Assembly: GCA_023666275.1 (NCBI GenBank)
Contig: JAMPCJ010000003.1
Coordinates: 124,001-188,000, forward strand
Source of the DNA: Treponema brennaborense
GTDB taxonomy: Bacteria; Spirochaetota; Spirochaetia; Treponematales; Treponemataceae
Reading direction: 5' to 3'
Length of the DNA stretch: 64,000 bases
Within the stretch, counting starts at the first letter, position 1, and the number at the start of each line of letters is the position of its first letter. Under the pieces are notes generated by a model that saw only the letters and a program-made list of their open reading frames with translations, had not been told where the DNA came from and did no database searches. The position numbers and the translations under genes are program-made. Of the stretch, positions 7,346 through 60,630 are shown piece after piece.

Positions 7346-8257
7346 TTATTGTGTCTGCACGATGCGCGGATAAGGCAGCGATTTTATGAATGCACCGGCG
7401 CGTTCAACGGCAAGATGCGCTTCGCTGATAAATTCGTCTGCCATTTGGAACATAAACATCATTCCGTCCCATATATCCATTATGTACGGAATATTGCAGA
7501 TTTTCAAATTTTCGGCGAAACGCTTCGTATCGAAAACTGCCAGTTCCTGCGAGCCAAGCTGAAAAAAAATCTGCGGAAAATTTATCAGTTCCTCTTTTTT
7601 GGCGTACATGGGAGATACAAGCGGATTCGTAAGATTTGAGTGATACGTATAAATGTCGGCGCAGCGGCGCAGCGACTCTGTGGAATAAATTTCGTCCGCT
7701 CGTTTTTTTGCCGAAAAAAGCGGCGATGCAGGAGAAAGATCCAGCCACGGAGAAAAAAGCATAACGGCGGCAATGCGCTTTCTGATTTGTTCGTTTGCGT
7801 TGATTACCGCTGCCAGCGCGATTGATGCACCGGAACTGTCTGCGCCGATGATGATGCTTCCGTCCGAAAGAATAAGTTTGTCAAGCACCTCCGCGACATC
7901 TTCGAATGCTGCCGGAAACGGATGTTCCGGCGCAAGGCGGAATTCGGGAACAATTGTCGTTGTTGACGCTGCGTGTGCAAGCGACGCGCAAAAACTGCGC
8001 CAGGAAACGCGGCTGCCGCCGACAAATGAACCGCCGTGCACGTACAGCATCGTTCTGTTTTGCGCCGCGGCTTCCGGCGTTAAAACATCGCAGACAACAC
8101 CGCCGATGTTTTTTTCTTCACGCTCCACGTTATTGGGAATATAGTCCAGAAAAAACGTTTTTTCGATTTGTTCCCGAAATGCCGCGATTTCAGATTTCTG
8201 TGTGAACACCAGCTGCCGCAGTTTTTTTACAGCGGATCGTTTATCATTTGCAGACAT
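7346..8257 (-). CDS. Alpha/beta hydrolase fold-3 (HSL-like) protein with altered active site
   Basis: A 303-residue protein of the hormone-sensitive-lipase branch of alpha/beta hydrolases. The oxyanion motif HGGSFVGG is at residues 74-81 and the nucleophile elbow reads GADSSGAS around Ser141, where GDSAG is usual. A candidate acid lies in GSQELAVFDTKRF. The catalytic histidine expected two residues after DGM is phenylalanine (DGMMFMFQ, Phe268). The fold is clear, but esterase activity is uncertain. There is no Shine-Dalgarno; TATACT lies seven bases before the ATG, so the mRNA is probably leaderless. The promoter is back to back with that of metA. Confidence 0.85.
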   Translation of the reverse strand: MSANDKRSAVKKLRQLVFTQKSEIAAFREQIEKTFFLDYIPNNVEREEKNIGGVVCDVLTPEAAAQNRTMLYVHGGSFVGGSRVSWRSFCASLAHAASTTTIVPEFRLAPEHPFPAAFEDVAEVLDKLILSDGSIIIGADSSGASIALAAVINANEQIRKRIAAVMLFSPWLDLSPASPLFSAKKRADEIYSTESLRRCADIYTYHSNLTNPLVSPMYAKKEELINFPQIFFQLGSQELAVFDTKRFAENLKICNIPYIMDIWDGMMFMFQMADEFISEAHLAVERAGAFIKSLPYPRIVQTQ

Positions 8258-9272: not shown

Positions 9273-9791
9273 TCAGTGCACAATAACGGCGGAGCCCTTT
9301 ATTTCTTTTTCTTTCGGTTCGCCGCCTTTATGTCCGATTGCCGCGCAGCCGTACACGCCGTGGTTTTCGGGAATGCCGAATTCGGTCAGCACCGCGCGCA
9401 CCGCCGGATCGTCATAACAGTCCAGCAGCTGATTTATCCACACGCAGCCGAGATTAAGCGATTCGCAGGCAAGATAAATGTTTTCCATGGCGCAGGCGTT
9501 GTCAACTTCGCGGAACTTGCTGTTTTTTTCGTTCGACGTGATGATGAGTACATCCGGATCATACATAGTGTATTCCGGACCGCGGCTGAGCGCTGCTGCG
9601 ACCGCGGCAGCAAGCTGCCGGATTTTATCTTTGTTTATCACTGCGGTGAAGCGCCATGTTTGTTTTCCCATGCCGGACGGCGCGGCGAGCGCACAGTCGA
9701 GAACAGTTCGAATATCTTGTTCCGAAACCGGCGCTCCGGTAAATGCGCGGCAGCTTCTCCGCCGCAAAATCGTTTCGATAGTTTGATTCAT
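9273..9791 (-). CDS. Nitroreductase family protein
   Basis: A 172-residue FMN-dependent oxidoreductase of the nitroreductase fold. It starts MNQTIETILRRRSCRAFTGAPV with the arginine cluster (RRSCR) that binds FMN phosphate, has the APSGMGKQTWRF segment, and a later NIYLACESLNLGCVWI helix typical of small nitroreductases. The C-terminal motif PENHGVYGCAAIGHKG matches the usual flavin-contact strand. The physiological substrate is unknown. AGGAG lies close before the ATG. It is transcribed convergently with metA and has no operon partner. Confidence 0.92.
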   Translation of the reverse strand: MNQTIETILRRRSCRAFTGAPVSEQDIRTVLDCALAAPSGMGKQTWRFTAVINKDKIRQLAAAVAAALSRGPEYTMYDPDVLIITSNEKNSKFREVDNACAMENIYLACESLNLGCVWINQLLDCYDDPAVRAVLTEFGIPENHGVYGCAAIGHKGGEPKEKEIKGSAVIVH

Positions 9792-58495: not shown

Positions 58496-59251
58496 ATGTC
58501 TAAAGTGTATGTATTCGTAAATCAAAAAGGCGGTGTCGGCAAAACCACTTCCGTGGTGAATATCGGCGCATATCTTGCCGAAGCCGGAAAAAAAGTGCTG
58601 CTGATTGATTTTGATTCTCAGGGAAACATGTCTTCCGGTGTGGGAATTACCCGCGAAAAGCCGACCGTATACGAACTGATTGCGGAGCTTGCTTCGGCGC
58701 AGCAGGTCATTCGGCAGACGCCTGTCGATAATCTGTACGCCGTTTCCGCGTCCATCGATTTGTCGGGCGCGGCGGTGGAACTGGTTGATAAAGACGGCAG
58801 GGAATATTTTTTGAAAAACGCGCTTTCTCCTGTCCGCGGAAATTATGATTACATTCTGATAGATTGTCCGCCGTCTTTGGGAATACTTACGCTGAACGGT
58901 CTTGCCGCCGCGGATGCCGTACTGATTCCGCTGCAATGCGAATATTTTGCATTGGAAGGCGTTTCGCTGCTGCTGCAGACAGTTCGCCGCGTGCAGCAGT
59001 CAATCAATCCCCAACTCGGCATAGGCGGCATTTTTTTTACGATGTACGATTCCCGCACGCGCCTTGCGAATGATGTTGTTTCACAGGTGAAATCTTATTT
59101 CAAAGATATTGTGTTCAATACTATTATTCCGCGCAATGTGCGGCTTTCGGAAGCGCCGTCGCACGGACTGCCGATCAATAAATACGATCCGCTTTGCGTC
59201 GGTGCGCGCAGCTACAAAAGTCTTGCGGAAGAGGTGATGCGCCGTGGCTAA
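58496..59251 (+). CDS. parA: Chromosome partitioning ATPase ParA (Soj)
   Basis: A 251-residue Soj-type ParA that binds DNA as an ATP dimer and moves the ParB-bound origin. The deviant Walker A motif is NQKGGVGKTTSVVNIGAYLA, Walker A' is DFDSQGNMSSGVG, and the Walker B is ILIDCPPSLGILT. There is no N-terminal helix-turn-helix extension, so this is the short chromosomal form. It precedes parB with an eight-base overlap and appears to have a leaderless start. Confidence 0.96.
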   Translation: MSKVYVFVNQKGGVGKTTSVVNIGAYLAEAGKKVLLIDFDSQGNMSSGVGITREKPTVYELIAELASAQQVIRQTPVDNLYAVSASIDLSGAAVELVDKDGREYFLKNALSPVRGNYDYILIDCPPSLGILTLNGLAAADAVLIPLQCEYFALEGVSLLLQTVRRVQQSINPQLGIGGIFFTMYDSRTRLANDVVSQVKSYFKDIVFNTIIPRNVRLSEAPSHGLPINKYDPLCVGARSYKSLAEEVMRRG

Positions 59252-60200
59252 ATCAGGACTTGGAAAAGGAATCGATGCGCTGATGGGCGGAACCGCCTTT
59301 CAGCCGGAAGAAAATTTTCCGCAGCACGGCGGCGGTTCGGCAGACAATTCTGCCGCAGCACAAAAAAACGCCGTGCCGTTTGCCGGCATAACGGTATCCG
59401 ATTCCGGCGAATTGCTGGCGGATGTATCGCTTTTGAAGCCGAATCCGCGGCAGCCCCGCACGGAGTTCGACGAAGCTTCGCTGCGGGAACTTGCCGATTC
59501 CATAAAAGAGCACGGCATTATTCAGCCGGTGCTTATCGAGAACGCCGAAGACGGTTTCTTCTATATAATAGCCGGTGAACGGCGGACACGCGCGGCGCGG
59601 CTTGCCGGTTTGGAAAAAATACCGGTGCGCATCAATAATTTTTCGGAACAGCAGAAGCTGGAAGTAGCGCTCATTGAAAATATCCAGCGCGAAAATCTCA
59701 ATCCGCTTGAAGAAGCGCTTGCCTACCGCAGTCTTATGGAACTCGGCGACTTAAGCCAGGACGAAACGGCGCGGCGCGTAGGAAAAAACCGTTCCACTGT
59801 CGCAAATGCGCTGCGGCTTTTGAAACTGCCGGAAGATATGCAGAGCGCGCTTGCCGACGGGCAGATAACGCCAGGGCACGCCCGTGCGCTGCTTTCCGTA
59901 ACGAATCCCGCGGATCAGCGCGTGCTGTTTGCAAAAATCACCGGCAATGCTTTGTCTGTGCGCGATGCGGAACGCGCCGCCTCCGAATTGAACGGCAGCG
60001 CCGCAGTTATGCCGTCTCCGAAAAACGCAAAACCCGCTCCGGCAAAAGATCCCGATCTGGCGCATATCGAACAGCAAATGATAGAAAAGCTCGGTACAAA
60101 AGTTTCCGTGAAAGGTTCTTTCGAGCGCGGCTGTGTTCAGATAGAATATTTCTCGCGCGATGACCTTGATCGGCTGTACTCTCTGATTCTCGGAGAATAA
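59244..60200 (+). CDS. parB: Chromosome partitioning protein ParB (Spo0J)
   Basis: A 318-residue CTP-dependent DNA clamp. The N-terminal CTPase domain has the [14 protein letters not shown] opening and the [16 protein letters not shown] box; the helix-turn-helix is [24 protein letters not shown]; the C-terminal dimerisation domain ends the protein. An insertion of about 60 residues at the N-terminus is rich in Gly and Ser. The start is GTG at 59244, with AGAGG upstream. Directly after its terminator lies an array of palindromes. Confidence 0.96.
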
Positions 60201-60250
60201 CGCCCGTAAAAGCCGCCCCGCGCACATTTTTCAATACCGAAAGATTTCTC

Positions 60251-60286
60251 AAAAAGGCCGCATTCATCAGTATGCGGTCTTTTTTT
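60251..60286. terminator. Intrinsic terminator after parB
   Basis: A 13-base-pair stem with one wobble (AAAAAGGCCGCAT against ATGCGGTCTTTTT) and a T-run. The A-run on the other arm means it can work in both directions. Confidence 0.85.
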
Positions 60287-60484
60287 CATACGTATGAAAT
60301 GGCAAAATATCGGCATAAAAACGCGTTTTTTCCCCGTTTCATACGTATGAAAAATTCTGTTCATAAGTATGAAATGATCGGTTCATACTTATGAAGTGCA
60401 TGCGTTCATAAGTATGAAACAGTTCGTTTATACGGATGAAATAAAAGCGCCATACGGATGAAATGCGGCGTTCATGCGCATAAA
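60285..60484. repeat. Array of eight 14-bp palindromes, TTCATAnnTATGAA
   Basis: Copies start at 60285, 60338, 60360, 60382, 60405, 60427, 60449 and 60471. The last seven are 22 or 23 bp apart. The first five are exact palindromes or differ only in the two central bases; the last three carry one or more changes in the arms. The eight or nine bases between copies are not conserved. This fills most of the 356-bp gap between parB and the tRNA. The regular two-turn spacing and conserved dyads point to an array of binding sites for a dimeric protein, which is inference. Confidence 0.9.
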
Positions 60485-60513
60485 ATCCCTGCTGTTCGGC
60501 TGGAATCTTCGTC

Positions 60514-60556: not shown

Positions 60557-60630
60557 GGGCCTATAGCTCAGTTGGTTAGAGCTGCGGACTCATAATCCGT
60601 CGGTCCCTGGTTCAAGTCCAGGTGGGCCCA
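60557..60630 (+). tRNA. tRNA with CAU anticodon, probably tRNA-Ile2
   Basis: A 74-nt cloverleaf. Acceptor GGGCCTA pairs with TGGGCCC, the anticodon stem GCGGA/TCCGT encloses CTCATAA, and the T-arm is CCTGG/CCAGG with loop TTCAAGT. CAU alone would mean methionine. The GACTCATAATC stem-loop together with CGGTC before the T-arm resembles tRNA-Ile2, in which TilS converts the C to lysidine. Elongator tRNA-Met cannot be excluded by eye. No CCA is encoded. Confidence 0.85.

Follow-up and report, generated by a model that had tools for sequence, protein, structure and literature searches.

The window, i.e. the whole 64,000-nucleotide stretch of Treponema brennaborense DNA that was analysed, contains the genes parA and parB and, downstream of them, a tRNA gene. 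An array of short palindromes lies between parB and the tRNA gene (Table 1). Eight dyads of the TTCATAnnTATGAA type start exactly at the positions given in a preliminary description of this DNA, and the near two-turn spacing reported there for the last seven was confirmed: successive starts are separated by 53, 22, 22, 23, 22, 22 and 22 bp. The 53-bp gap between dyads 1 and 2 corresponds to 5.05 turns at 10.5 bp per turn, which is also near a whole number. Dyads 1-5 match the motif exactly. A ninth, partial dyad (TTCATCAGTATGCG, 60263-60276) is located within the hairpin of the terminator; it starts 22 bp ahead of dyad 1 and keeps the same 22-bp register. With up to three mismatches allowed, the window contains 54 matches to the motif, compared to 32.8 +/- 5.4 in shuffled sequences; the number of 54 was reached in 0 of 100 shuffles. 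In the 2.35-Mb genome the exact motif occurs 14 times, always within arrays, and the reversed control pattern does not occur.

Table 1. Features surrounding the palindrome array in the window, and the further copies of the repeat on contigs C13, C1, C10 and C15.
Feature	Position	Strand	Remarks
parA	58496-59251	+	AAA_31; neighbour judged incidental
parB	59244-60200	+	ParB_N, HTH_ParB, ParB_C; neighbour judged incidental
Interspersed repeat, window copy	60208-60491	+	blastn against C13, C10, C15 and C1
Intrinsic-terminator-like hairpin and T-run	60256-60286	+	GGCCGCAT / ATGCGGTC; common to the C10, C13 and C15 copies
Dyad 1	60285-60298	none	TTCATACGTATGAA, exact
39-bp spacer	60299-60337	none	common to the C13 and C1 copies, not in C10 and C15
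Dyad 2	60338-60351	none	TTCATACGTATGAA
Dyad 3	60360-60373	none	TTCATAAGTATGAA
Dyad 4	60382-60395	none	TTCATACTTATGAA
Dyad 5	60405-60418	none	TTCATAAGTATGAA
Dyad 6	60427-60440	none	TTTATACGGATGAA, 2 mismatches
Dyad 7	60449-60462	none	GCCATACGGATGAA, 3 mismatches; C13 copy identical
Dyad 8	60471-60484	none	TTCATGCGCATAAA, 3 mismatches
tRNA	60557-60630	+	CAT anticodon; neighbour
Repeat copy C13	C13:8102-8322		blastn 87%
Repeat copy C1	C1:75086-75294		blastn 79%
Repeat copy C10	C10:5388-5531		blastn 84%
Repeat copy C15	C15:7901-8006	minus	blastn 85%

The array is part of an interspersed repeat of ~260 bp (the INTERSPERSED repeat), which is present in five copies in the genome. The coordinates of the copies were determined by means of blastn, with positions 60270-60490 of the window as the query against the genome. 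For the repeat, the identities are 87% over 259 bp (C13), 94% over 67 bp and 84% over 144 bp (C10), 82% over 93 bp and 85% over 106 bp (C15), and 79% over 209 bp (C1). Homology of the window copy to C13 and C10 begins at 60233, and homology to the 3' tail of an HU_rel gene on C15 begins at 60208. The hairpin, previously assigned to parB as its terminator, belongs to the repeat and is present in other copies. Because homology spans the spacers and the terminator, the copies represent duplications rather than independent operators. In the C10 and C13 copies the gene is missing, and the HU promoter region is joined to the terminator and the array; the window copy contains the HU 3' tail, the terminator and the array; the C1 copy is essentially the array alone. 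They appear to derive from a single ancestral HU_rel-array locus. The repeat was absent from the 148 related genomes that were searched (0/148).

The comparison of the copies modifies two earlier statements. The spacers of 8-9 bp do vary within the window array, but they are conserved between the genomic copies (87% identity with C13 over 221 bp including the spacers), so that their description as freely variable was rejected. Likewise, the outer dyads 6-8 carry mismatches, but their decay is inherited, because C13 has an identical GCCATACGGATGAA at the same place. With dyads of 14 bp and spacers that are conserved between copies, the array is not a CRISPR, in agreement with the first assessment; the identical 23-50 nt repeats and unique spacers of a CRISPR are lacking in the window array.

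On contig C15, the same terminator and array are located just downstream of an HU_rel (HU-HIG) gene (C15:8108-8593, minus strand). The encoded protein scores above the curated cut-offs, with 72.7 bits for TIGR01201 (cut-off 68.6) and E = 1.1e-20 for PF18291, and is a member of the HU-HIG / HU_rel proteins defined by these two models. The window array shares the dyad spacing of 22 +/- 1 bp with the HU_rel-linked arrays described below and, via its homologous C15 copy, also their position beside an HU_rel gene. In an alignment with HU (5fbm), the C15 protein is covered over residues 38-120; the arm region aligns poorly and the usual RNPxTG stretch is missing. The mode of DNA contact may therefore differ from that of ordinary HU. 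A tblastn search with HU_rel gave one weak match in phages and four matches in plasmids, including pTS1 of T. saccharophilum; a pattern scan of viral contigs found nothing. HU_rel was too poorly conserved to yield a profile suited to scanning viruses.

Adjoining the C15 HU_rel gene is a divergent gene for an ATPase (AAA_21), whose best PADLOC match is AbiLi (1.6e-68). A restriction-modification pair, consisting of an Eco57I-type methylase and a BsuBI/PstI-type endonuclease, also adjoins the locus, and all of these genes are found together at C15 L064:8108-12764. This cluster is likely a defence island. The arrangement of ATPase, HU_rel and array is a recurrent module in spirochaetes: in 10 clan-A loci, and also on pTS1, HU_rel has a divergent AbiLi-like ATPase gene beside it. 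The match of the ATPase constitutes a likeness to the AbiL abortive-infection system; unlike in AbiL, no AbiLii partner was identified, and HU_rel together with the array appears to be the partner.

The association of HU_rel genes with phased arrays was assessed in a census of 95 HU_rel loci from spirochaete relatives and Parabacteroides, from which duplicates had been removed. Lag autocorrelation was computed for 700 bp on each side of the gene with a threshold of z >= 5.5; this measure was chosen because a detector of dyad chains is too strict for arrays of half-sites. A periodic flank was found at 45 of the 95 loci, and in 43 of these the lag is 21-23 or 43-45; the remaining two are N-runs. 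At this threshold, 52 of the 95 genes are without an array. None of 20 control loci of ordinary HU has an array (highest z 4.9). Sampling 400 kb of the genome to which the window belongs gave 11 arrays with a lag of 21-23 or 42 and z >= 5.5, and therefore ~3.6 in 95 loci are expected by background. The excess corresponds to a Poisson P of ~4e-31, which is a guide only, as the loci are related and their independence is overstated. The arrays lie either downstream of the HU_rel gene or upstream of it, where the start of the array window is 150 to 607 bp away from the gene. Their dyads are highly diverse (e.g. TTTATCTTGATAAA, TCATCTAGATGA, TTCTCACTGAGAA, TTTCCACTGGAAA, AACGCACTGCGTT, GGGAACGTTCCC and AACTACCTGTAGTT), so that they do not represent one inherited sequence. 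For the Bacteroidota, 50 HU_rel loci of the family of Parabacteroides (G254) were also examined, and 15 of these have arrays with a lag of 22-23 or 42-44 and z >= 5.5, a figure that stands without a matched control and includes one weak case (lag 42) that is not clearly dyadic. HU_rel genes are abundant and reach a number of 27 in a single genome sampled from this family. Taken as a type, the arrays consist of dyads of ~12-16 bp repeated every 22 +/- 1 bp, that is, every two helical turns; they often accompany HU_rel genes in spirochaetes and Bacteroidota, and the dyad differs from one HU_rel clade to another.

Within the 400 kb sampled, most of the remaining phased arrays are located away from HU_rel genes. 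A second family of phased dyads (TGTTAGTAACTAACA), likewise dispersed, was seen at L230:5604 (C2 ~25604) and L234:11356 (C10 ~71356) with no HU_rel nearby, and a third with CGTATTTCCGTAAATA-like dyads at L243:7273 (C13 ~67273) and L246:1488 (C15 ~61488); one copy of the CGTATTTCCGTAAATA type adjoins a gene resembling an XRE-type HTH regulator. For these two families, no HU_rel parent could be found.

For pairs of HU_rel proteins with less than 60% identity, protein identity correlates with the sharing of 7-mers between the arrays (Mantel r = 0.33; 0 of 2000 permutations). In the HU_rel tree, on which dyad labels were assigned by eye, proteins of the same clade from different genomes share dyads, and paralogues within one genome often differ. 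In the clade of the C15 protein, the dyads have the form TTyATnnnnATrAA, the arrays follow the gene and a terminator, and in 10 loci the divergent AbiLi-like ATPase gene is present, as noted above. Judged from these sequences, the dyad follows the HU_rel protein and not the genome. One case departs from this: the Parabacteroides HU_rel with adjacent TTCATAACTATGAA arrays is not placed in the spirochaete clade with TTCATACGTATGAA, and distant HU_rels can therefore have identical dyads. At one locus (L210; G255 C58:28300-29600) a compound array was observed, whose dyads shift from TTCATACGTATGAC to TTTATACGGATAAA and then to a TTTATCTTGATAAA-like site and CATCTAGATGAA types; it is perhaps a record of changing specificity.

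Satellite arrays were found in three genomes, namely that of the window (G000), Spirochaetia SUG108 and Parabacteroides. Counted with at most one mismatch, TTCATAnnTATGAA has 174 occurrences in Parabacteroides Marseille-P3160, compared to 22 for the control, and 63 compared to 14 in Spirochaetia SUG108. The Parabacteroides genome contains dozens of dispersed arrays; most of the satellites examined consist of three or four dyads with a spacing of exactly 22 bp, and roughly inverted-repeat ends surround four dyads (gtgtcaaaag...cttttgacac). For the window copy, neither clear terminal inverted repeats nor clear target duplications were seen. A AAACTCACTGAGTTT array at L236:9055 (C10 ~269055) looks like a satellite of a C13 HU_rel (113985). 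On C1, a 100-bp repeat with a GTCATCGCGAGGAGTGCCGCAGGCACGACGAAGCGATCC-like palindromic sequence is present twice (L020 ~7390-7490 and 9399-9500; 95% identical), preceding two small related genes for secreted proteins. Pairs of TTCATAnnTATGAA dyads were also observed in Nonomuraea (L056, L059, L063; 22 bp apart) and in a Rhizobium MAG (L058; 20 bp apart), where they adjoin genes that by eye resemble ArsR-type regulators. As two-site, operator-like occurrences without satellites, they were set aside, and it seems that the dyad was reached there independently as an operator.

The dispersal, the phasing, the association with HU_rel and the agreement of dyads with clades can be read directly from the DNA. 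We consider it most likely, with a probability of about 0.6, that the arrays are binding sites of HU_rel proteins with dispersed satellites and that the window array is a satellite of the HU_rel-linked cognate array. The earlier proposal that a dimeric DNA-binding protein occupies the array cooperatively remains the best type of explanation, the likely partner being HU_rel and not ParB. In the simplest reading, an HU_rel homodimer would recognise its own dyad, and dimers would line up along one face of the DNA at intervals of two helical turns. Since the two-turn spacing places successive dimers on the same face, they could cooperate and bend or wrap the DNA. Speculatively, a bent or wrapped nucleoprotein filament would be built first at the array that adjoins the gene of the protein and subsequently at the satellites in other parts of the chromosome, and in the C15-type clade the divergently encoded AbiLi-like ATPase may act with the HU_rel-array complex. 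It counts against HU_rel as the binder that more than half of the HU_rel genes in the census are without an array at the threshold used, that most of the remaining arrays in the sampled 400 kb are away from HU_rel genes and two families lack an HU_rel parent as far as could be found, that distant HU_rels can have identical dyads, and that ordinary HU binds DNA by its shape and not by a palindromic sequence.

The repeat could instead be a selfish miniature mobile element of the MITE or REP type, mobilised by a transposase in trans, with HU_rel as cargo or accessory and no host role at parB. Since flanks and spacers are common to the copies, spread by duplication is evident, and both the inverted-repeat-like ends of the Parabacteroides satellites and the gene-less deletion derivatives at C10 and C13 suit a mobile element. 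However, no conserved transposase adjoins HU_rel, no clear target duplications were observed for the window copy, and mobility alone does not account for strict 22-bp phasing and symmetry across unrelated dyads. Furthermore, the genome has no PF01797 match and thus no RAYT/Y1 transposase, so that a RAYT-driven REP was rejected. We regard a purely selfish origin as rather unlikely. It is improbable that the array serves as operator for a conventional dimeric regulator of the ArsR, TetR or XRE type encoded elsewhere: the dyad pairs beside the ArsR-like genes of Nonomuraea and Rhizobium would speak for it, but these comprise two sites and lack satellites, and the spirochaete arrays follow terminators or lie upstream of a gene, the recurrent nearby gene being HU_rel.

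A role as a centromere-like site, or as an accessory site of ParB or the ParAB system, which the position directly behind parB and the suitability of phased dyads for a dimeric protein had suggested, is very improbable, as four further copies lie away from parAB, 0 of 148 relatives have a copy and the canonical parS sits beside gyrA. This site (TGTTTCACGTGAAACA), the one perfect parS of the genome, adjoins gyrA and gyrB at C3:29680; a further site with two mismatches lies at a distance of 664 bp. The array was rightly described as not parS-like, since the TGTTnCACGTGnAACA sequence is absent from it, and the window indeed lacks parS (0 matches at <=3 mismatches). The repeat was consequently rejected as a parS element, having neither a parS sequence nor parB-linked conservation. 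Genome-wide scatter and absence from related parB neighbourhoods, named in the preliminary description as evidence against its own proposal, are largely what was found.

ParB-parS and plasmid centromeres such as sopC and parC are known cases of a gene beside a helix-phased dyad array for its dimeric product. The HU_rel gene beside a phased dyad array resembles these systems in this respect, but differs from them by the absence of a ParA/ParB partner, many copies per chromosome, an HU-fold protein and a clade-specific dyad. REP/REPIN elements and their RAYT transposases are likewise dispersed extragenic palindromes with a parental copy that adjoins a dedicated gene (PMC3116915, PMC3733652). The five dispersed extragenic copies of the repeat fit this description, and a gene-adjoining parental copy with gene-less satellites elsewhere is common to both. 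In contrast to REP/REPIN, HU_rel replaces the Y1 tyrosine transposase, there is no common GTAG/CGTC tag, and the HU_rel-linked arrays have 4-9 dyads at strict 22-bp phasing.

A comparative study of HU clades reportedly appeared in Cell Cycle in 2017. No description of palindrome arrays cognate to HU_rel was found in the open-licence literature, and our findings point to an undescribed pairing of protein and site. Tentatively, at somewhat less than even odds, the HU_rels would be a large family of binders of clade-coded palindrome arrays at their own genes and at satellites, unlike ordinary HU and possibly tied to anti-phage ATPases. For the parB locus, the false lead of a second centromere is removed. 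The HU_rel-array rule provides a candidate DNA code for each protein, so that its function is open to direct binding assays, and it would account for one kind of intergenic repeat that is dispersed in the genomes of spirochaetes and Bacteroidota.
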